Source: a virus. From it: DNA of 25,621 bases. The position numbers and the translations under genes are program-made. The stretch spans positions 1 through 25,621 of IMG/VR virus record IMGVR_UViG_3300011114_000183, one strand, 5' to 3'. Shown one piece after another: positions 4,074-21,295 of this stretch (positions are counted from its first letter, which is position 1; each line of letters starts with the position of its first letter). The notes below the pieces were generated by a model that saw only the letters and a program-made list of their open reading frames with translations, did no database searches and had not been told where the DNA came from.

Positions 4074-4751
4074 ATGATGGCCGTTCAACGGTTCGTCCTC
4101 GACTCAACCACACTTGACAACGCAGGCTTCGGGCTTGACGGTGGTGCAGCATTCATCCTTGATACTTCAACGCTTGATAGTGCAGCTGTTCTTGATGGTG
4201 GAGAGTTCCTAACTGTTGCCACCGGCTCATCGTCTTTGGGTGGGCTTAGTGCTTCAGCGTCTGCGCAATCAACGGTCTTCGCTGTTCTGTCTTCAAGTTT
4301 GGGTGGGCTGGATGCGTCTGCGACTGCGCGATCAACTCTGTTCCCTGTGTTGTCTTCGTCGTTGGGTGGGTTGGATGCGACGGCCACAGCGCGAGCAACA
4401 ATCTTCCCTGTTCTGTCTTCGTCGTTGGGTGGGTTGGATGCGACGGCCACAGCGCGAGCAACAATCTTCCCTGTTCTGTCTTCGTCGTTGGGTGGGCTGG
4501 TTGCTTCAGCAACAGCAACAGTGATCCCACCAGAACCAACACCAGAACCAATACCTTCAGGCGGACGACAATACGCTGCACCACGACGCAAGAAGATTGA
4601 ACCGCTACCAGAAGTTGAGATACCAGTCATCCAACCGAAACGACGCTACGCAGTCGCGTCAGCAACCTTGAACGGAATGCAAGCGCAAGCAGTCGGGACA
4701 ATAACTTTCAGCATCTTGGACGATGATGCTGAGGTATTGTTGTTGGTCTAA
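4074..4751 (+). CDS. Repeat-containing putative virion protein
   Basis: A 225-residue protein with three parts. Residues 6-43 carry two copies of an F(I/V)LD(T/S)xxLD motif. Residues about 50-160 are 21-residue repeats of the type SSSLGGLDATATARATIFPVL, nearly identical in the middle copies. A basic, proline-rich segment follows (PPEPTPEPIPSGGRQYAAPRRKK), then a final degenerate repeat, ASATLNGMQAQAVGTITFS. The repeats contain small residues in alternation and probably fold as short beta strands. It lies between head genes, starts four bases after the previous stop, and its stop overlaps the protease start. I do not recognise an enzyme; a decoration or spacer-like virion protein is the best inference. 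The FILDTS motif is shared with a tail protein at 16872-18116. Confidence 0.65.
   Translation: MMAVQRFVLDSTTLDNAGFGLDGGAAFILDTSTLDSAAVLDGGEFLTVATGSSSLGGLSASASAQSTVFAVLSSSLGGLDASATARSTLFPVLSSSLGGLDATATARATIFPVLSSSLGGLDATATARATIFPVLSSSLGGLVASATATVIPPEPTPEPIPSGGRQYAAPRRKKIEPLPEVEIPVIQPKRRYAVASATLNGMQAQAVGTITFSILDDDAEVLLLV
4351..4496 (+). repeat. Perfect 63-bp tandem repeat in coding sequence
   Basis: Two identical 63-base units (4351-4413 and 4414-4476) and the first 20 bases of a third (4477-4496) encode the 21-residue repeat of the surrounding gene. Two more degenerate copies precede them (about 4225-4350). The period is a multiple of three, so copy-number change keeps the frame. The DNA identity of the central copies, against divergence at the flanks, suggests recent duplication or slippage. 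Confidence 0.93.
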
Positions 4752-6362: not shown

Positions 6363-7559
6363 ATGAAACAATTTATTGAACAACAAATGGCACAACGCGC
6401 AACAGCGTGGGAAGCCGCAAAGAAGATTCTTGATGTTGCAACCGCCGAAAAGCGTGACTTGTCAGCAGAAGAAACACAGACATATGAGCGCATCAGCAAA
6501 GAACTTGACGAGCGCACAGCAACAATCGAGAAGCTCCGCGCCGATGAGGCCCGTGAACTTCGTTTGGATGCAGCAACACGCGAGATCGCAGACCAGGTTC
6601 GTCCTGTCGCTGACGCTCCACGCGCAGAGCGCAACGACAACGATGTAATTCGTTCGATGGCAAAAGGTGAAATTCGTTCACACATGTTTGAGAAGCGTGA
6701 TGTTGTAAAGACATCAGCAGGCGCACCAGTACCAACATCGTTCTACGACCAAGTGATCATGCTTGCTCGTACGGTTGGTCCAATGCTCCAGACTTCAACA
6801 GTCTTGAATACAGCATCAGGCGAGAACCTTCAGATTCCATCACTTGCTCAATACTCGACAGCGGCAATCGTTGGCGAAGGCACAGCAATCGCAGAATCGG
6901 ATCCAGTATTCAACTCATTCATCACATTGGGCGCATACAAGTTCTCGTTCCTCGTTCAACTCTCACGAGAGTTGGTCGAAGATTCAGGCGTGGACATCTT
7001 GCGCTTCTTGGCTGATCAGACCGGCAACGAACTCGGTGTGCGTGTTAACGCTTCACTGACAACTGGCTCAGGAACAAACCAACCAAAAGGTATCGTCGTA
7101 GCATCAGCTGTCGGCGTAACTGGCGGAACCGCAGTTTCGGGTGCGTTCACAGCAGACAACTTGATTGACTTGGTCTACTCGGTAGACACAGCCGGTCGTC
7201 GTTTGGCTGGTTCAGGCTTCCAGATGAATGCAAAGTCAATCGGTGCAATGCGCAAACTGAAGGACACAGCAGGCAACTTCGTGTTCCAACCAGCACTTAG
7301 CGCAGACGCAAATGACTTGCTTCTTGGATACCCAGTATTCGAGAACCCAGCAATGGCAGACACGGCAACTAGCGCGAAGTCGGTAATCTTCGGACACCTT
7401 CCTTCGTACTTCGTTCGCTCGGTAGGCGGCATCAAGTTGGATCGAAGCGATGACTTCGCATTCAGCACTGATCTCATTACCTTCCGTGCAACAATGCGTG
7501 TCGATGGCAACTTGCCACAAACATCACATGTCAAACACTTCATCGGCAACGCTGCTTAA
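6363..7559 (+). CDS. Major capsid protein (HK97 fold)
   Basis: Builds the icosahedral shell. The 398-residue protein has an N-terminal helical, charged delta/scaffolding region (about residues 1-110, coiled coil around 25-70) and then the HK97 fold. The usual entry is seen in TSAGAPVPTSFYDQVIMLAR, the core in LVQLSRELVEDSGVDILRFL and LTTGSGTNQPKGI, and the end in ATMRVDGNLPQTSHVKHF. The protease encoded just upstream probably removes the N-terminal region near residues 105-120; the exact site cannot be read. A GGAG ribosome binding site precedes the ATG. A dedicated promoter and a downstream terminator bracket the gene, which is usual for the most abundant late protein. Identity is secure. 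Confidence 0.95.
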   Translation: MKQFIEQQMAQRATAWEAAKKILDVATAEKRDLSAEETQTYERISKELDERTATIEKLRADEARELRLDAATREIADQVRPVADAPRAERNDNDVIRSMAKGEIRSHMFEKRDVVKTSAGAPVPTSFYDQVIMLARTVGPMLQTSTVLNTASGENLQIPSLAQYSTAAIVGEGTAIAESDPVFNSFITLGAYKFSFLVQLSRELVEDSGVDILRFLADQTGNELGVRVNASLTTGSGTNQPKGIVVASAVGVTGGTAVSGAFTADNLIDLVYSVDTAGRRLAGSGFQMNAKSIGAMRKLKDTAGNFVFQPALSADANDLLLGYPVFENPAMADTATSAKSVIFGHLPSYFVRSVGGIKLDRSDDFAFSTDLITFRATMRVDGNLPQTSHVKHFIGNAA

Positions 7560-7583
7560 TTAGAGCAACCGATAACAGACATG

Positions 7584-7648
7584 ACAGTCCGCAAGGGCTG
7601 TGACTAGGATTAAGCCTCGGTAAGGTCGTGCAGGACTTGCCGAGGCTT
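7584..7648 (+). terminator. Tandem hairpins, probable terminator after the capsid gene
   Basis: The main hairpin is AAGCCTCGGTAAG (7612-7624) pairing with CTTGCCGAGGCTT (7636-7648), 13 pairs including one G-U, with an 11-base loop. A smaller hairpin precedes it: ACAGTCC-GCAA-GGGCTGT (7584-7601), with a GNRA-type tetraloop. There is only a short T-run after the main stem, so it may act as a weak terminator or an RNA-stabilising end rather than a strict stop. It separates the capsid gene from the glycosyltransferase run. Confidence 0.7.
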
Positions 7649-7670
7649 TACCTATTCCCGCACTATTCTT

Positions 7671-7684
7671 AGGAGGATCATGTG
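7671..7684 (+). promoter_or_regulatory. Single ribosome binding site serving two staggered starts
   Basis: AGGAGG (7671-7676) is followed by ATCATGTGG. ATG at 7680 has a spacing of three bases, GTG at 7682 a spacing of five. Elsewhere in this window the same AGGAGG stands five bases from its start (12647 and 13724), so spacing favours the GTG, while codon strength favours the ATG. The two starts open different frames, both long. Confidence 0.8.
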
Positions 7685-7904
7685 GCAAACAGTAATCGTC
7701 AAAGGCATACCAGTCGAGATGCCAGGAGCGTTGGCGGAACGATTAGTCCGAGCGGGCGCGGCGCACTACTTGGAAGTGTCCGACCAGCCAATCCCGATCG
7801 ACTCAGAATCCTCTGGTATAGCAACGCACCTTGGGCAGCAACCGGATACGGTCAGCAAACCGCGCAAGTCATCCAAAGGCTCGCGAAAGAAAACCACCAA
7901 ATAG
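7680..7904 (+). CDS. Small Lys-rich-tailed protein overlapping a glycosyltransferase
   Basis: A 74-residue frame: MWQTVIVKGIPVEMPGALAE, then RLVRAGAAHYLEVSDQP and a basic tail SKPRKSSKGSRKKTTK. The first 35 residues follow a pattern I recognise from small phage proteins encoded near capsid genes: a short beta strand, 'P.alA..Lv.aGaA', then a charged variable tail. That is why I consider the frame real. It is read from the same ribosome binding site as the glycosyltransferase frame, offset by two bases, and lies wholly inside that ORF. Function unknown. It might be a separate minor head protein, or the natural N-terminus of the glycosyltransferase joined by a -1 shift or by correction of a sequencing indel. 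Confidence 0.55.
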   Translation: MWQTVIVKGIPVEMPGALAERLVRAGAAHYLEVSDQPIPIDSESSGIATHLGQQPDTVSKPRKSSKGSRKKTTK

Positions 7905-8977
7905 CAATCCACGCAATGTATGGACTTGCGGGTTCGTCATCAACATGGAACGGATTCAAGGTCTACCCACAAGGACTCGCCGCATATAGCGACGATGTAC
8001 TTGTTGCGCACACAACGGAATGGGCAAGTCAAGATCTGTCGACGCCGACTTTGATGATGACATTGTTTGATGTGTGGGTGTTGAAATCTGAGTCGTTGAA
8101 AGATTGGAAGAACATCGCGTCGTGGGTTCCGATTGATCATCAGCCAACACCGCCAGATGTGTTGCAATGGTGTGCGCGTCCAAATGTGAGACCGATCGCA
8201 ATGTCGAAATTTGGTTCACGAATGTTGGATGTTGCAGGAGTTCAGCATCTGTATGTTCCTCACGCAATCGAATCAGTGTTCCAACCAACCGAGTCGGTTG
8301 CTTTGCAGAACGGCGGGAAGATGACTGGTCGAGAGTTCATGGGTTGGGAAGAAGACAGATTCGTTGTGTCAATGGTTGCGACGAACAAAGGCAATCAGCC
8401 TGCCCGTAAGGCGTGGGCTGAGAACATTCTTGCGTTCTCAATTTTTGCTAAAGATCATCCTGATGCGGTGCTGTATTTGTACACGGAACCTGATGGTGCG
8501 ATGTCTGGTATCAGTTTGCCGACATTGATGGATGCAGTCGGCATATCGGCGGACAAGTACAAGGTCGTTGACCAGTACGCATATCGGCATGGTATTCCAC
8601 AGAATGTGATGGCTGCGATGTACACGGCGTCCGATGTTCTGTTGGCCTGCTCAATGGGTGAAGGTTTCGGCATTCCTGTGATCGAGGCGCAGGCTTGCGG
8701 GTGTCGAGTGATCGTCAGCAACTTCACAGCGCAACCTGAGCTGGTCGGTGATGGTTGGACGGTTGAGGGTCAGCCGTGGTGGGATGCGGCACAGAAGTCA
8801 TGGTTCTTCACACCGTCTGTGCCTGACATCGTCAATGCCCTCAAGTCGGCCTATAACGCGCCTAGGAGCCGTTCTCAGGACGCAATCACCCATGCCCTAG
8901 GGTACGGAGCCGACGCTGTATTTGAGCAGTATTGGAAGCCTGCGATGAAGGAGTTGTCTACATGGTGCCGGTCATAG
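7682..8977 (+). CDS. GT4-type glycosyltransferase
   Basis: A GT-B fold enzyme expected to transfer a sugar from a nucleotide donor. The first Rossmann segment is LRILWYSNAPWAATGYGQQT (from about residue 41). The donor-site signature EGFGIPVIEAQACG has the GT4 E-x7-E pattern at Glu327 and Glu335, followed by CRVIVSNFTAQPELVGDG. Residues 1-40 (MANSNRQRHTSRDARSVGG and onward) look like out-of-frame sequence rather than a domain. No ATG, GTG or TTG occurs in frame between 7682 and the Rossmann segment, and the next Met would delete that segment. The GTG at 7682 is therefore the only simple start; a -1 shift from the frame starting at 7680 is an alternative. It is the first of four consecutive sugar-transfer genes. 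Acceptor unknown. Confidence 0.85.
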   Translation: MANSNRQRHTSRDARSVGGTISPSGRGALLGSVRPANPDRLRILWYSNAPWAATGYGQQTAQVIQRLAKENHQIAIHAMYGLAGSSSTWNGFKVYPQGLAAYSDDVLVAHTTEWASQDLSTPTLMMTLFDVWVLKSESLKDWKNIASWVPIDHQPTPPDVLQWCARPNVRPIAMSKFGSRMLDVAGVQHLYVPHAIESVFQPTESVALQNGGKMTGREFMGWEEDRFVVSMVATNKGNQPARKAWAENILAFSIFAKDHPDAVLYLYTEPDGAMSGISLPTLMDAVGISADKYKVVDQYAYRHGIPQNVMAAMYTASDVLLACSMGEGFGIPVIEAQACGCRVIVSNFTAQPELVGDGWTVEGQPWWDAAQKSWFFTPSVPDIVNALKSAYNAPRSRSQDAITHALGYGADAVFEQYWKPAMKELSTWCRS

Positions 8978-9615
8978 TCATACCTGTTCTCAACCGATAC
9001 GACTTACTTGAACGCTGCATAGATTCGCTTGACTTCCCAGTTGACAAGATCATCGTCATCGACAACGGAGGCAAGATTGAAGAAGATTGTTTGATGATGC
9101 CACGCCACAGTCGGCACGGCAAGACATACATCTTGGATATGCCATCAAATCTTGGTGTGGCAACTTCTTGGAATCTTGGCATCAAGATGACACCGTTCGC
9201 ATCTGGTTGGATTCTTATGAACTCAGACGCCTGGTTCATGCCAGACAAACTTGAACAGTTCTGGGAGTCGTGCTATCCAAACGAGATTCATCTCACAGGT
9301 TCACCAGAGTGGGCTTGCGCATGGATCGGCTGCGATGTAGTCAAAGATGTCGGCCTGTTCTGCGAAGCGTTCCATCCCGCGTACTTCGAAGACAACGACT
9401 ATGAGCGTCGCGCTGTGCGTCTCGGCAAAACGATCCGCAAATCTCAAGACATCATCGTGCATGACAACTCGTCAACACTTCTGTCCGATGTCTCATTCCA
9501 AGGTAAGAACGCACAAACTTTCGCATCGAATCTGGAGTTGTTCAAACTTCGCAACGCAAGACTTGACGCAGGTCATTGGGATCTGCAACGCCGACTAGAT
9601 CTCAGTTGGGATTGA
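8962..9615 (+). CDS. GT2-type glycosyltransferase
   Basis: A 217-residue GT-A fold enzyme. MVPVIVIPVLNRYDLLERC is the classic GT2 start, IIVIDNGGK carries the nucleotide-binding Asp34, LMNSDAWF holds a DxD-like NSD (87-89), and FEDNDYERR (142-150) is the ED motif supplying the catalytic base. The ATG at 8962 is chosen because it begins this fold exactly and has AAGGAG eight bases upstream; in-frame ATG 8932 would add ten unrelated residues. The gene overlaps the GT4 gene by 16 bases and its stop overlaps the next start. No membrane helix is seen, so it is probably cytoplasmic. Donor and acceptor cannot be read from the sequence. Confidence 0.9.
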   Translation: MVPVIVIPVLNRYDLLERCIDSLDFPVDKIIVIDNGGKIEEDCLMMPRHSRHGKTYILDMPSNLGVATSWNLGIKMTPFASGWILMNSDAWFMPDKLEQFWESCYPNEIHLTGSPEWACAWIGCDVVKDVGLFCEAFHPAYFEDNDYERRAVRLGKTIRKSQDIIVHDNSSTLLSDVSFQGKNAQTFASNLELFKLRNARLDAGHWDLQRRLDLSWD

Positions 9616-10349
9616 TGAGAGTCTTCGACTGCATCTTATTTAACCAAGAACACGACATGCTCGAATGCCGGTTGTCGGAGTTAGGTGATGTCGTTGACCT
9701 GTTCATCATTGTTGAATCGTCCACAACTTTCATGGGTCAACCTAAACCGCACGGTATTGATCTTGACAGGTTCTATCGTTGGCGTGGCAAAATCCATTAC
9801 GAAACATTTGAACCAAACCCGCATCAACTTGGTTGGGCGGCGGAACACGCACAACGCGACCATCTGTTTGTTGCGTTGCAACAATTCAAACCACAAGCCG
9901 AAGACATCGTGACAGTCGCGGACTGTGACGAGATATGGAACCCAGCCGACATCGACATACTCAAACAAGGTTGGCATTGTTACATGATGAAGCGTCTCGT
10001 GATGTCCGCTTATTGGCGTCTCACCGATGAACACACGATGGTTGCGGGACCGTATGGTCAACGCGCTGGTGGTGCGCAACACATGCGCTCGAATCGTGAA
10101 CGGTTGCCGAATCTGAGATCAGGTTGGCATGTGTCGTGGATGGGTGGACCTGAATGGGCTGCGAACAAGATGCGCTCGTTCTCTCACCAAGAACTCATGG
10201 TCGATGACCCTGAAGGATTCATGGCAGAGAACTATCGGATCGGTCGTTCGATACGCGGTGAAACATTGTGGGAAGTTGAGATCGCCGATTACTATCCTGC
10301 CTACATTCGAGAAGGTCTAGCACCAGAGTCTTGGTATCTCAGACGATGA
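9615..10349 (+). CDS. GT17-family glycosyltransferase
   Basis: A 244-residue protein that matches the GT17 pattern (the family of eukaryotic beta-1,4-mannosyl-glycoprotein N-acetylglucosaminyltransferase and many bacterial and phage homologues): MRVFDCILFNQEHDMLECRL at the N-terminus, then DLFIIVESSTTFMGQPKP (residues 28-45) and VADCDEIWNP with the DxDE metal site (103-106). WHVSWMGGPEWAANKMRSFS is also typical. ATG 9615 overlaps the upstream stop (TGATG) and begins the conserved sequence; an in-frame ATG at 9576 is rejected for that reason. The real donor and acceptor in phages are not known; the eukaryotic activity should not be assumed. Confidence 0.88.
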   Translation: MRVFDCILFNQEHDMLECRLSELGDVVDLFIIVESSTTFMGQPKPHGIDLDRFYRWRGKIHYETFEPNPHQLGWAAEHAQRDHLFVALQQFKPQAEDIVTVADCDEIWNPADIDILKQGWHCYMMKRLVMSAYWRLTDEHTMVAGPYGQRAGGAQHMRSNRERLPNLRSGWHVSWMGGPEWAANKMRSFSHQELMVDDPEGFMAENYRIGRSIRGETLWEVEIADYYPAYIREGLAPESWYLRR

Positions 10350-10990
10350 TCACTGTTGTCGGACTCTTGTGGGGTACTGCGTACAAGAATGAAGTTCAAG
10401 GTTGGTGGGATTCTGTCCAGGCTTTGAACCCACCGGCTGATGACATCGTGGTTGCTTACCATCCTGACGATGATTGTGGTGCGCTTGACTTACCGTGTCG
10501 ACTTGTTGAGTGTCGGATTCGAACCTGTGATGCCATGCTCCATGCGGCGATTGCGACTATCAAGGATGGTTGGATTGCTGGTCTTGCGATAGATGACAGG
10601 TTCTACCCTGATGCGTTTGCTTGTCTACCAAAAGGTGACTTTGATGTTGTTGCGAACACGATCAGATTTATGTCGCACGGCGGTGTCAACCCGTCTGCAC
10701 CTGAACGAATGGGTGTGGACAGATTCCGCAATCATGTGATGGGAACATCTTGGTTCACAAAAGAAATCTGGGAACGGACTGGCGGATATCCAAATGTATA
10801 TTGGTCGGATTGGGCCTTTTGGTGGAAGTGTTGGGTGCATGGTGCGAGATGGTTCAAGCCTGCTGGTGTTCAAGTGTTAGTGAATGACATTCGATCAAAC
10901 CGCATCTCTTCGGATTCAAATATGGAGGCAGATCTTGAGATGCACAAGTTCATTGCCGAGTACACTCAACCTGAGTCTGAAGTAAGATAA
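10346..10990 (+). CDS. GT2-like glycosyltransferase
   Basis: A 214-residue protein with a GT-A-like outline: MITVVGLLWGTAYKNEVQGW and an N-terminal strand-helix region, DDIVVAYHPDDDC, GLAIDDRFYPDAF with a DD pair (83-84) where GT2 enzymes bind metal and nucleotide, and GTSWFTKEIWERTGGYP followed by WSDWAFWWKCW, which resembles the acceptor-side segment of GT2 enzymes. The start at 10346 overlaps the GT17 stop (ATGA); ATG 10331 would add five residues. It ends the sugar-transfer run, directly before the head-tail connector gene. The family call is weaker than for the three genes before it. Confidence 0.72.
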   Translation: MITVVGLLWGTAYKNEVQGWWDSVQALNPPADDIVVAYHPDDDCGALDLPCRLVECRIRTCDAMLHAAIATIKDGWIAGLAIDDRFYPDAFACLPKGDFDVVANTIRFMSHGGVNPSAPERMGVDRFRNHVMGTSWFTKEIWERTGGYPNVYWSDWAFWWKCWVHGARWFKPAGVQVLVNDIRSNRISSDSNMEADLEMHKFIAEYTQPESEVR

Positions 10991-10997
10991 GGAAACT

Positions 10998-11624
10998 ATG
11001 GCAATCACGAACGGCTATGCCACACGCAACCAAATCAAGGCTGCTCTTCGTATCGGCACAGCCGACACACAAGACGACGACCTAATAGACAACTGTGCCG
11101 GTGCAGCGTCACGGTTGATTGACGGTTATGCGAACCGACAGTTCTGGAAATACGGATCCGCGACGACAAGAGTGTTCACCGCAGCCGATTCATTCGTGTG
11201 CGAGATTGACGACATCGCTGGAACTGCACTCATACTCAAAACACAAACCAATGCGGACGGCAACTTCGATGTCACATTCACACCAACCGACTACCAACTA
11301 GAACCAGTGAACGGAATCTTGGACGGACTCACCGTTCCGTTCACACGCATCCGCGCAGTCGGCGACTTCTTGTTCCCAACATTGAACGCAAACTTCGGCT
11401 CCGAAGCATTGGTGCAACTCACCGCTGTTTACGGTTGGCCGTCTGTACCTGAGCCGATCACACAAGCTGTGATCATTCAGGCGTCAAGAATTTTCAAGCG
11501 TTACGATTCACCGCTCGGCGTTGCCGGCTTCGGAGACTTGGGTGCGATACGAGTGACACGCGCACTTGACCCAGATGTCGCACAACTTGTCGAGCCATAT
11601 CGCCGAATGCGAATGTTCGCATGA
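10998..11624 (+). CDS. Head-tail connector (gp6-like adaptor)
   Basis: A 208-residue protein of the HK97 gp6 / SPP1 gp15 adaptor type, which forms a ring under the portal. Seen: NGYATRNQIKAALRIG, an N-terminal helical stretch DDDLIDNCAGAASRLIDGYA, then an inserted beta region (RVFTAADSFVCEIDDIAG), LTAVYGWPSVPEPITQAVII and a final helix QASRIFKRYDSPLGVAGFGD. The pattern 'YGWP.vP.pI..A.i..a.r.fkr..spLGv' is typical of actinophage adaptors. AAGGA precedes the ATG. It would normally follow the capsid gene directly; here four glycosyltransferase genes intervene. Confidence 0.87.
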   Translation: MAITNGYATRNQIKAALRIGTADTQDDDLIDNCAGAASRLIDGYANRQFWKYGSATTRVFTAADSFVCEIDDIAGTALILKTQTNADGNFDVTFTPTDYQLEPVNGILDGLTVPFTRIRAVGDFLFPTLNANFGSEALVQLTAVYGWPSVPEPITQAVIIQASRIFKRYDSPLGVAGFGDLGAIRVTRALDPDVAQLVEPYRRMRMFA

Positions 11625-13906: not shown

Positions 13907-14046
13907 TGACAATCAAATATCCAACCATCACCATCAGGCTTGACCAAGAACTCAAGACTCTGATTGAGCGTCAAGCCAAGCGTGAAGATGTGAGCGTGTC
14001 CGAGTTACTTCGCCGATACATTGAGGCAGGTCTGCACAATGTTTGA
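13906..14046 (+). CDS. Ribbon-helix-helix (CopG/Arc-like) DNA-binding protein
   Basis: A 46-residue ORF, MTIKYPTITIRLDQELKTLI, then ERQAKREDVSVSELLRRYIE and a short end AGLHNV. The pattern is a textbook ribbon-helix-helix domain: strand TITIRLD (the DNA-contacting ribbon), helix 1 QELKTLIERQAKRE, turn V-S-V-S, helix 2 ELLRRYIEAGL. Such proteins bind operators as dimers and often occupy tandem sites, matching the 21-base direct repeats 200 bases upstream. It is preceded by a TAATG overlap and overlaps the next gene by eight bases. It could be an autoregulator of the cassette, a phage repressor, or an antitoxin-like protein. Confidence 0.82.
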   Translation: MTIKYPTITIRLDQELKTLIERQAKREDVSVSELLRRYIEAGLHNV

Positions 14047-14752
14047 AGTCGTCGGTTTCCCATCGGTCAAGTCCATCTACCCAAAGACCATCGCCACATC
14101 ATGGATGGACTTCGCAACCATGCTCGGCAACCATCAAGAACGCGAGCAGAAGTCTGACGGCAAGTTGTATTCGCCAGTCACATACCGTGAACACACAACT
14201 CGTGGCAACCGCAATGTGTCGCATGTGTGGGCGTTGGTTGCCGACCTTGACGGCGAAGCATTCGAGCAGGCTGATCTCGGATCGTATATACATTTTGCGT
14301 ACACAACTTGGTCGCATCGTGACAACGATCCACACTGGCATGTTGTCGTTCCATTCGAGCAGGCTGTGCCAGTACAAAACTGGGAAGAAGTCTGGCATGA
14401 GACACATGAGCGTCTTCGTCTCAAAGGCGACCCAGCAACCAAAGACCCAGCCCGCATCTTCTACCTACCACAGCACGAAGCAGGTCAGCAGTTCCGCACA
14501 CATCATTCAGGTTGGCGATTCCTTGACCCGACGATCACAGACATCGCAGCACCGACACGCACATTCTCTACACCGAACATTCGCTCGACTCGTCAACCTC
14601 GTCGCGGTAATCCGATGCGATGTGTTCTTGACCCGAAGTGGTGGAGCGCACCGATCGACATGTCGCAATATGACGGCATGACACAGTCAGAGATTCATAA
14701 AGACATGCAACGCGAGTGGGCTGAGCTGCGTAAACGGATGTCTATTAACTGA
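14039..14752 (+). CDS. Primase-like (archaeo-eukaryotic primase fold) protein
   Basis: A 237-residue protein. The central region resembles the catalytic core of small PrimPol-type or replication proteins: VWALVADLDG with a DxD pair (D69, D71), IHFAYTTWSHRDNDPHWHVV with His residues near 99-101 for the second motif, and KDPARIFYLP with Asp136 for the third. The arrangement 'DxD ... YTT.S......hrvv.P ... D.aRifYlP' is what I associate with this superfamily. No helicase or zinc-finger domain is attached, so it may be a minimal or degenerate primase. The ATG at 14039 is preferred over TTG 14021 and overlaps the ribbon-helix-helix gene. A DNA-replication-type protein in the tail operon is out of place and supports an acquired cassette. 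Confidence 0.6.
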   Translation: MFEVVGFPSVKSIYPKTIATSWMDFATMLGNHQEREQKSDGKLYSPVTYREHTTRGNRNVSHVWALVADLDGEAFEQADLGSYIHFAYTTWSHRDNDPHWHVVVPFEQAVPVQNWEEVWHETHERLRLKGDPATKDPARIFYLPQHEAGQQFRTHHSGWRFLDPTITDIAAPTRTFSTPNIRSTRQPRRGNPMRCVLDPKWWSAPIDMSQYDGMTQSEIHKDMQREWAELRKRMSIN

Positions 14753-19407: not shown

Positions 19408-19754
19408 TGGCACACTACGCATTTTTAGACGCAAACAATGTTGTAATTAAAATTATTGTTGGCATAGACGAAACAGAACTAATCGAAGGTCTTGACCCTG
19501 AGACTTGGTACGGCAATTTTTGCGGCCAACAATGCGTACGCACAAGTTACAACGGCAACATACGCAAACAATACGCAGGCATCGGCTACACATACGATCA
19601 TGTCGCTGACCAGTTTGTCGCACCGCAACCATACGCGTCGTGGACACTAGACGAAAATAACGATTGGCAACCGCCAACGCCGATGCCATCAGACGCATCA
19701 AAAACAAAAAAATACTATTGGAGTGAAGAAGATCTTGCGTGGGTCGCCATCTAA
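19407..19754 (+). CDS. Conserved tail-fibre-associated protein, cyanophage-like
   Basis: A 115-residue protein, MAHYAFLDANNVVIKIIVGI, with CVRTSYNGNIRKQYAGIGYT, YDHVADQFVAPQPYASWTLD and YYWSEEDLAWVAI. The pattern 'TSYNgn.Rk.YAgiGytYd...daFi.pqPy.SW.Ld....W..P.p.P' is very familiar from phages of cyanobacteria and other aquatic hosts, usually next to tail fibre genes, but its function is not established. ATG 19407 is chosen over 19398 because it overlaps the preceding stop and starts the conserved sequence. It could be a fibre tip or chaperone. The end overlaps the next gene by 16 bases. Confidence 0.72.
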   Translation: MAHYAFLDANNVVIKIIVGIDETELIEGLDPETWYGNFCGQQCVRTSYNGNIRKQYAGIGYTYDHVADQFVAPQPYASWTLDENNDWQPPTPMPSDASKTKKYYWSEEDLAWVAI

Positions 19755-21295
19755 CCAGGTGGCTAATTCCGCTTCCTGCGATCGTTCTATCGTTCTGGCC
19801 GACATCGGTTCAAGCCCAAGCACAACCAGGAATCGAAACCGTCTACTACACGATTGACGAAATACCGCCAACACAATCGGACACCGAATACCTAGTTTGC
19901 GGAACAGAGGTTGAGAACAACATCAATCGCAACTACGACTACGAACTATTTGAAGACTGCACCTATGACCTGTTCATGGTTCACATGACCGGCTTCATCA
20001 ACATACCTCAACACGACACCATAGAGTTCATGCTCGCCACGGATGATGGCGGCGAGATGGAGATTGACGGCAACACATTCGGCAACTGGAACGACCAGGG
20101 CTGTTCATGGATGATGTCAGGCGAACTCACGCTCGAACCTGGAAGCAACGCTTTCAATGTGTGGATGTATGAGCATGGCGGGAACTCGTGTCTGATGCTC
20201 GCATGGAACATCGACAACGAAGGCTGGGCGATAGTGCCAGACGAGTCGTTCACTCAGCAGGCGATCGCGCCGACCACAACTACTTCTTCAACCACCAGTA
20301 CGAGTACAACGACAACCACAACAACATCGCCGTCAACAACAACGACCTCATCTACAACAACCCTTCCTCAAGAAACGACCACAACCACCGAACCAGTTCA
20401 GTCAAGCACAACCACATCAACGACAAGTACAACGACAACCACGACCACAACTGTTGCACCAGCTCCGACCACAACGCAAGCACCTTGGACTCCTCCTCAA
20501 ACCACGACGACTAGCGAACCAGTCGTGACAACAACTTCAAGTACAACGACCACCACTTCTTTACCTGAACCCTCAACCACAGTTGCAGAAACATCTACAA
20601 ACACTCAACCTGCAACGACAACAACCGAACCTGCAACGACAACAACCGAACCTGCGACAACATCTACAACCGTTCCTGTCGAGCCTGATCCCACTGTGCC
20701 TGTATCTCGTCCAGTTCAGTCTTCCGTTGCTCCAACTCTGCCCGTTGAAACAAGTACGCCAACATCACAGCCGTCGCCAGAAACAAGTATCCAAGAAACA
20801 TTGCCACCAAAAGTAGAGAGTTCATCGACCACAACGCTACCCGAAATCAAACTCGGCATCGTCGCCGACCAGCCGATCAGCGACACAAAAGTTGAGCAGA
20901 TACTTGTCGCACTTGCCGAGGCTGCACCGGCACAGATCGTCGCAGCAATCGACCAAGTTCTCGCCACCGCTATCACATCCGATCAGGCGGTCAGCATCGC
21001 CTCATCGCCTGAGGTGTTGGCGGCTGTCACCGAGGAGCAAGCCGAAGCGATCTTCGAAGAGATTGTCGTAGAAGAACTGACCGCCGAAGTCGCCGAAGAA
21101 CTCGTCCAAGTCCTAAACGAAGCACCCACAAAAGTCAAGCAAGCATTCCAAGAAACAATCAATGTGTTCGCAGGTGTCTTCGACTCATACCAAATGGTCG
21201 GGCAAACCATTCCTGTTGGTGAGCGTAGAACTTTGGTCGCCGTATCAAATACACTTGTTGCGGTAGGAGCCAGCCTGCGCAGAAGAAGCAACTGA
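19739..21295 (+). CDS. Secreted PA14-like protein with Thr-rich linker
   Basis: A 518-residue protein with an export signal (residues 1-26, MGRHLTRWLIPLPAIVLSFW then VQA before the predicted cut). Residues about 30-175 form a PA14-like beta domain: FINIPQHDTIEFMLATDDGG with the DDG motif near 102-104, LEPGSNAFNVWMYEHGG, and four Cys (54, 74, 122, 151) that could form two disulfides. Residues about 178-330 are Thr/Ser/Pro-rich, mucin-like. Residues about 375-510 are helical, acidic repeats ending in a hydrophobic stretch and RRRSN, a possible membrane anchor. The GTG start is the only good one in frame before the signal. Proteins of this style are typical of actinobacterial cell surfaces. A role as surface adhesin, exclusion factor or lysis helper is open. 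Confidence 0.75.
   Translation: MGRHLTRWLIPLPAIVLSFWPTSVQAQAQPGIETVYYTIDEIPPTQSDTEYLVCGTEVENNINRNYDYELFEDCTYDLFMVHMTGFINIPQHDTIEFMLATDDGGEMEIDGNTFGNWNDQGCSWMMSGELTLEPGSNAFNVWMYEHGGNSCLMLAWNIDNEGWAIVPDESFTQQAIAPTTTTSSTTSTSTTTTTTTSPSTTTTSSTTTLPQETTTTTEPVQSSTTTSTTSTTTTTTTTVAPAPTTTQAPWTPPQTTTTSEPVVTTTSSTTTTTSLPEPSTTVAETSTNTQPATTTTEPATTTTEPATTSTTVPVEPDPTVPVSRPVQSSVAPTLPVETSTPTSQPSPETSIQETLPPKVESSSTTTLPEIKLGIVADQPISDTKVEQILVALAEAAPAQIVAAIDQVLATAITSDQAVSIASSPEVLAAVTEEQAEAIFEEIVVEELTAEVAEELVQVLNEAPTKVKQAFQETINVFAGVFDSYQMVGQTIPVGERRTLVAVSNTLVAVGASLRRRSN
20609..20650 (+). repeat. 21-bp repeat in the Thr-rich linker
   Basis: Two identical copies of a 21-base unit (20609-20629 and 20630-20650) encode PATTTTE; a partial third follows from 20651. 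They lie in a longer stretch of ACA/ACC/ACG threonine codons (about 20270-20700), which gives an in-frame, slippage-prone tract. Copy number probably varies between related phages. Confidence 0.85.

Follow-up and report, generated by a model that had tools for sequence, protein, structure and literature searches.

The four glycosyltransferase (GT) genes that stand between the major capsid gene and the head-tail connector gene of this freshwater phage are probably its own form of a modular cassette for virion glycosylation, for which the capsid-connector interval is a fixed site. The window, meaning the whole stretch of 25,621 nucleotides that was analysed, carries them in the order GT4, GT2a, GT17 and GT2b (Table 1). 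Because a swappable set of such genes is found at a fixed place in many related aquatic phages, these phages probably coat their particles with variable sugars; comparison among relatives further indicates that the capsid-connector cassette spans a wide phage group and is no chance feature of a single genome.

Table 1. Features of the window that define the glycosyltransferase cassette and its surroundings.
Feature	Position	Strand	Evidence or remark
Major capsid protein, HK97 fold	6363..7559	+	PF05065, E 9e-58; upstream cassette boundary
Hairpin 1, ACAGTCC-GCAA-GGGCTGT	7584..7601	+	Fold z -4.5 for 7560-7660
Hairpin 2, long stem resembling a terminator, loop TCGTGCAGG conserved	7612..7648	+	
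s74, 74-codon gene	7680..7904	+	Nested in the 5' part of the GT4 ORF, in another frame
GT4, retaining GT-B	7682..8977	+	PF00534, 1e-11; phrog_2170, 1e-30
GT2a, GT-A family 2	8962..9615	+	PF00535, 9e-9; phrog_29879, 3e-41
GT17	9615..10349	+	PF04724, 5e-24; variable module
GT2b, divergent GT-A/GT2-like family	10346..10990	+	phrog_9549, 2e-5; variable module
Head-tail connector, gp6-like	10998..11624	+	phrog_442, 7e-14; downstream cassette boundary
PA14-domain protein, long Thr/Ser-rich stalk	19739..21295	+	PF07691, 4e-5, just under cut-off; candidate acceptor

The initial annotation described four GT genes in one coupled run in the capsid-connector gap, and gene calls, Pfam and PHROG matches and the junction overlaps bear this out. 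GT4 and GT2a overlap by 16 nt as read from the sequence, the motif TGATG is common to the end of GT2a and the start of GT17, ATGA is common to the end of GT17 and the start of GT2b, and 7 nt separate GT2b from the connector gene. Two details of that description are revised, in that position 7680 opens not the GT run but a separate 74-codon frame inside the GT4 ORF, and the run is set off from the capsid gene by a conserved hairpin pair (7584-7648). The dN/dS values of the four GT genes (0.12-0.18) are similar to that of the capsid gene (0.17); on this sequence evidence selection on all four is purifying, and their catalytic motifs are intact.

GT4 belongs to GT family 4 by a PF00534 match above cut-off together with an E-x7-E motif (EGFGIPVIE) that is invariant in 70 sequences, and its closest and broadest match to a solved structure is the profile match to chlorovirus B736L (3oy2, E 1e-10). 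The conserved core begins at about 7805, and translation likely starts at GTG 7682, a codon retained in the divergent L060 clade. For GT2a, the best start is ATG 8962, which has an AAGGAG site ahead of it; its C-terminal LDLSWD and the following TGATG are conserved and form the junction of module exchange. GT17 is placed in family 17 by a PF04724 score of 85.5 bits, against a cut-off of 26, and by a conserved D-x-D, with D116-x-D118-E119 kept in at least 97% of 38 relatives; 66 relatives were found in IMG/VR and none among INPHARED phages. A Pfam search of the GT2b sequence gave no match, and its weak sequence matches are to the protein glycosyltransferases GmaR and SunS. An AlphaFold2 model of GT2b built from a 30-sequence alignment (pLDDT 91, pTM 0.88) retrieved 223 PDB matches at E <= 0.001 in Foldseek, with GT-A enzymes on top and a GT-A fucosyltransferase as the best (E 5e-10, TM 0.74). 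Judged mainly by this predicted fold, and with DD and DW invariant in its relatives, GT2b is a GT-A/GT2 enzyme.

The position of the cassette is constant across relatives. All 106 close loci have GT4 immediately 3' of the capsid gene (some contigs being counted twice), and among 80 divergent GT4 loci the capsid gene is upstream in all 70 in which it was detected and the connector gene downstream in all 62 in which it was detected. Sixty-four distinct islands share a constant core, with GT2a, called in 62 of them, usually second after GT4, and exchange their later modules, which comprise GT17, the GT2b family, a methyltransferase, a Maf/sialyltransferase-like enzyme, other GTs and others. The four-enzyme set had been thought unfamiliar at this place; a search of relatives found the same four families in the same order between capsid and connector in 18 of the 64 distinct islands, and the GT4-GT2 pair is already annotated here in Pontimonas phage phiPsal1. 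Relatives carrying these genes near early genes would have spoken against the proposal, and GT17 was found in an early-gene context in none of them. Nor does GT17 behave like a gene imported singly at random sites, given that GT2a is upstream in 88 of 92 GT17 loci, the connector gene is downstream in 77, and not one of the 92 lacks both neighbours. GT4 is the sole occupant of the site in nine loci and so can work first or on its own; at the same time, the site is free of GTs in 5 of 73 divergent capsid loci and three capsid relatives have GT2a without GT4, and GT4 is thus neither essential nor always first.

The interval ahead of GT4 is structured. Hairpin 1 is conserved among aligned relatives with A-U/G-U exchange, and the stem of hairpin 2 is rewritten in some relatives while its loop is kept; the hairpin that phiPsal1 has at the matching position is a stronger intrinsic terminator. 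An Rfam search of the window, hairpin region included, returned no family. Codons 2-41 of the nested gene s74 have a dN/dS of 0.16, and its offset to the GT4 core (125 nt) is invariant in relatives. A programmed -1 frameshift joining s74 to GT4 is less likely: inspection by eye showed no canonical slippery heptamer, all 68 main-clade sequences keep the GT4 frame free of stops as far back as GTG 7682, and third-position changes that would create a stop are avoided across the whole stretch (Fisher p 0.023).

Several known systems resemble the cassette in part. That some mycobacteriophages have glycosylated virions, as the initial annotation stated, agrees with reports on Che8, Corndog (cluster O) and Myrna (PMC12363180), whose capsid and tail tube are described as glycosylated (PMC12363180; PMC12619734, citing Freeman 2023). 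The cassette shares with the Che8/Corndog type the presence of several coupled GT genes, often accompanied by a methyltransferase, in a phage with a head operon; the cluster O mycobacteriophage Wildflower has a methyltransferase and three GTs in its head operon, between portal and protease. The Che8 GTs (gp108-110), however, lie at the right end of the genome, the GT families of Che8 and Wildflower differ from those of the window, and the virion glycans of the mycobacteriophages are measured ones, those proposed here predicted. The window's enzymes have no detectable homology to the Che8 or Wildflower GTs, which counts against the comparison, and no module exceeded 66% probability in hhalign comparisons with the Che8 and Wildflower enzymes; the weak links are those of module C6 to Che8 gp108 (65%) and of module C3 to the Wildflower methyltransferase (63%), neither module being in the window, and C6 matches phrog_14775, which also contains the GT domain of gp108.

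A close likeness in gene order is seen in phiPsal1 (MG835450), which has capsid, group I (GT4) glycosyltransferase, GT2 and gp6-like neck protein genes at the same site, both enzymes being homologous to those of the window (hhalign, 100% probability). It differs in being without GT17, GT2b and s74 and in having an opposite-strand methyltransferase between GT4 and GT2; the phage itself is not available for study (PMC6106888). A GT4 of the same family follows the capsid gene and precedes the adaptor in Microcystis phage Mae-JY09, which has another capsid lineage, and in Synechococcus phage S-CBS4 it belongs to a GT4-GT2-methyltransferase run from portal to protease; the companion genes in both differ and include, for example, a nucleotide-sugar epimerase. 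Chloroviruses PBCV-1 and NY-2A likewise encode cytoplasmic GTs, and their capsid glycans have a conserved core made by conserved enzymes and variable additions (PMC7826918), a functional similarity that can be drawn by analogy, although these are eukaryotic algal viruses with scattered genes and an unrelated capsid fold.

If the cassette glycosylates virions, the four genes would be transcribed late and the cytoplasmic GT4, as the initiating enzyme, would attach the first sugar, taken from a host nucleotide sugar, to a virion protein. The simplest and favoured candidate acceptor is the product of the adjacent capsid gene. GT2a would then lengthen the glycan begun by GT4, and GT17 and GT2b would supply outer, variable sugars, a step that in other islands may fall to a methyltransferase, Maf/sialyltransferase-like enzymes or other GTs. 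Variation in these outer sugars would alter the surface of the particle, so that recognition by surfaces or grazers, cross-binding or the host could be affected and selection would act to diversify them. When GT4-bearing and GT4-less capsids were compared, 2 of 28 conserved Ser/Thr columns, and none of 215 other columns, were replaced in both GT4-less clades (p 0.013, from just two such clades); one of the two columns is Val in the window, which leaves T336 as a weak lead. A wider proposal is offered tentatively: the capsid-connector site might be a fast-exchanging glycotype locus of a large aquatic phage group, in which GT4 and GT2 form the constant core and make a protein-linked stub on the capsid, the surface is diversified as in an O-antigen locus by exchangeable outer enzymes (GT17, GT2, methyltransferase, Maf/sialyltransferase-like), and GT4 expression is tied to the structured RNA and the nested gene.

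From the late-operon place, the initial annotation had argued for action on virion proteins or the host surface and not on DNA; comparison of relatives supports the argument from place, and virion proteins are candidate acceptors. Absence of a thymidylate-synthase-type hydroxymethylase from 12 relatives, with no clear membrane segment in any of the four window enzymes, makes modification of DNA or of the envelope less likely. Late modification of host wall or surface polysaccharide, blocking superinfection or keeping progeny off debris, is an unlikely alternative, albeit one with points in its favour: the best structural neighbours of GT2b include the wall-teichoic-acid enzymes RmlT, TarP and TarS, variable GT sets are similar to surface-glycan loci, and superinfection exclusion has been suggested for phage GTs in a study of Nanopelagicales phages (PMC10202952). 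Against it, the 64 distinct islands contain no flippase, GtrA-like, multi-pass or membrane-anchored enzyme, as a serotype-converting GtrABC-type system would have, and the GTs are tied to the capsid gene and not to early or lysis genes.

It is still less probable that the acceptor is a phage protein other than the capsid, above all the PA14-domain protein. This secreted-looking protein has a mucin-like stalk with up to 85% Ser and Thr over 40 aa, unmatched elsewhere in the window, and PA14 matches occur in 6 of 12 relatives (2.5e-7 for PF07691 in L219); yet it lies about 9 kb from the cassette, phiPsal1, L183 and L148, all of which have GT4 in the same place, gave no PA14 match, and the stalk may be a plain linker, as Thr stalks can be. 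Glycosylation of hydroxymethylated DNA bases as protection from nucleases, a role put forward for GTs in the freshwater actinophages E7 and F5 (PMC10202952) and familiar from other phages, is very improbable here: PF00303 (thymidylate synthase/hydroxymethylase) was absent from 12 relatives, the complete phiPsal1 included, while positive controls matched; relative G001 has ordinary C5 and N4/N6 DNA methylase genes instead; and the GTs sit in the head operon. A Tet/JBP search gave no match, and since its controls were silent as well it carries no weight.

To our knowledge, glycosylated phage particles are documented in just a few mycobacteriophages. Should virion glycosylation prove to be the role of this cassette, it would be common among abundant aquatic phages, would have a single recognisable place in the genome and would vary by module exchange. 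Phage surface sugars would then become predictable from sequence, and the empty sites would offer natural pairs, with and without the enzymes, for testing the role of the sugars under conditions in which selection by animal antibodies can play no part.

The window, a virus record of 25,621 bases, follows the late-region order of a siphovirus, in which genes for the terminase, portal, protease and capsid precede the cassette, and those for the connector, tail terminator, tail tube, tape measure, lysis, a WhiB-type regulator and an exonuclease come after it; the presence of the WhiB gene points to an actinobacterial host. The cassette comprises four glycosyltransferase genes, GT4, GT2a, GT17 and GT2b, whose overlapping frames lie between the capsid stop and the connector start. 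Family assignment is strong for GT4, GT2a and GT17. A Pfam search with GT2b gave no match; its structure model, built with 30 diverse relatives as input, is confident (pLDDT 91) and resembles GT-A enzymes of the PDB and phage glycosyltransferases of a viral library. Against relatives, dN/dS is 0.12 for GT4, 0.18 for GT2a, 0.13 for GT17 and 0.16 for GT2b, similar to that of the capsid (0.17), and the catalytic motifs of all four enzymes are invariant or almost so.

Positions of the cassette, its flanks and other features of the window
Position	Feature	Observation
4074-4751	Repeat-built protein	Repeat type SSSLGGLDASATARSTL; gene between head protein and protease genes
6363-7559	Capsid gene	Stop at 7559
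7584-7648	Two conserved hairpins	Gap between capsid gene and cassette; no Rfam family for the pair
7680-7904	Small gene, 74 codons	Out of frame in the GT4 5' end
7682-8977	GT4	Likely GTG start at 7682
10998-11624	Connector gene	Start at 10998
14021-14752	Primase/helicase-like sequence (phrog_9765, 3.5e-13)	Among tail genes, directly upstream of the tape measure gene; same place in relatives, about 82-95% identity
14770-16869	Tape measure protein	About 30-66% identity in many relatives; neighbouring genes there 80-95%
19739-21295	PA14-domain protein	Signal-like N-terminus, very Thr/Ser-rich stalk; a PA14 match in 6 of the 12 relatives examined

IMG/VR was scanned with GT17 (66 loci) and with the capsid (80 loci), and the window proteins were then mapped onto these loci. 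GT4 lies immediately 3' of the capsid gene in 106/106 loci that extend 700 nt or more downstream, a count of loci rather than contigs, some contigs being counted twice. The four-gene run between capsid and connector genes described in the initial annotation is confirmed, and the arrangement is non-random and widespread. Among 92 GT17-bearing loci, GT2a stands just upstream in 88 and the connector downstream in 77, and none lacks both. The GT17 protein had no match among 50,697 INPHARED records at E 1e-5. Of 64 distinct islands, 18 share the window arrangement, GT17 and a GT2b-family gene after GT4 and GT2a. A few other arrangements occur downstream of that pair: 20 islands (one with a spurious extra ORF) have a methyltransferase, GT17, a GT2b-family gene and an MptE/Maf-like enzyme, six have the GT2b family alone, six have a second GT4-like enzyme (C5), and the remainder are arranged otherwise. 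The additional modules include a class I methyltransferase (C3; PF13649, 4e-13), the MptE/Maf-like enzyme, weakly similar to sialyltransferases (C4; PF01973, 4e-8, slightly below the threshold; phrog_4603, 3e-4), and a GT2 (C6; phrog_14775, 1e-10). Exchange takes place at the conserved 3' end of GT2a, which reads LDLSWD and then TGATG.

A profile led by the GT4 of the Pontimonas phage phiPsal1 retrieved 80 divergent loci, with a capsid gene just upstream in all 70 where one was detected and a connector downstream in all 62 where one was detected; in the rest, contig ends cut the flank, or the capsid or connector was undetected. GT4 is the sole gene between the two in nine loci (gap of at most 45 nt). 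When divergent capsids were the starting point instead, GT4 was found at 65 of 73, GT2a only at three and an empty site at five (L368, L371, L372, L377 and L389), where the connector gene follows about 100 nt after the capsid gene with no glycosyltransferase; on a tree of the capsids, those lacking GT4 require two changes, whether gains or losses. Among assembled genomes of bacteria and archaea, the top matches adjoin phage head genes on MAG contigs whose labels read actinobacterium, Microbacteriaceae, Chloroflexi and others, such bin labels being weak host evidence.

The small gene begins two bases ahead of the GTG in the GT4 frame (ATGTG), and its codons 1-41 are under purifying selection (dN/dS 0.16), which the GT4 frame over the same stretch is not (1.13). 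Across 68 sequences the GT4 frame has no stops there and the third frame 229. In the divergent L060/L063/L064 clade, GTG again lies five bases past the Shine-Dalgarno site, with the start of the small gene six bases further on. The plain reading is that one ribosome site would serve both overlapping starts; in divergent relatives, GT4 mostly opens directly at an ATG of its own, with no small gene present. Of the two hairpins ahead of the cassette, the second keeps its stem through compensatory changes and its loop constant in sequence (TCGTGCAGG). Separate transcription of the cassette is suggested by a strong terminator-like hairpin at the same place in phiPsal1 and by TANNNT boxes, identified by eye, just 5' of the GT4 ATG in several divergent genes. 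At loci L187-L200, these boxes stand a few bases upstream of the ATG (e.g., TTTGCTAGGATTAGGCC-ATG), as in leaderless transcripts with their own promoter.

A virion protein is favoured as the acceptor because of the position and conservation of the cassette and the absence of membrane or base-hydroxylation genes (the four enzymes have no clear membrane segments, and a thymidylate-synthase-type hydroxymethylase is absent in 12 relatives). From gene order and conservation, GT4 would act first, then GT2a and the variable enzymes last, three GT2a-only islands being the exception. Glycosylated virions are reported for the mycobacteriophages Che8, Corndog and Myrna (PMC12363180, PMC12619734 and PMC11256854, describing Freeman et al. 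2023), and the cluster O phage Wildflower carries an O-methyltransferase and three glycosyltransferases, there between portal and protease. This precedent is direct in kind; the window enzymes are not close homologues of the Che8 and Wildflower glycosyltransferases, and mycobacteriophage virion glycosylation is therefore a parallel rather than a family to which the cassette belongs. In its mode of action, the arrangement would be a novel form of the virion-glycosylation cassette already known from phages, with a predicted chemistry.
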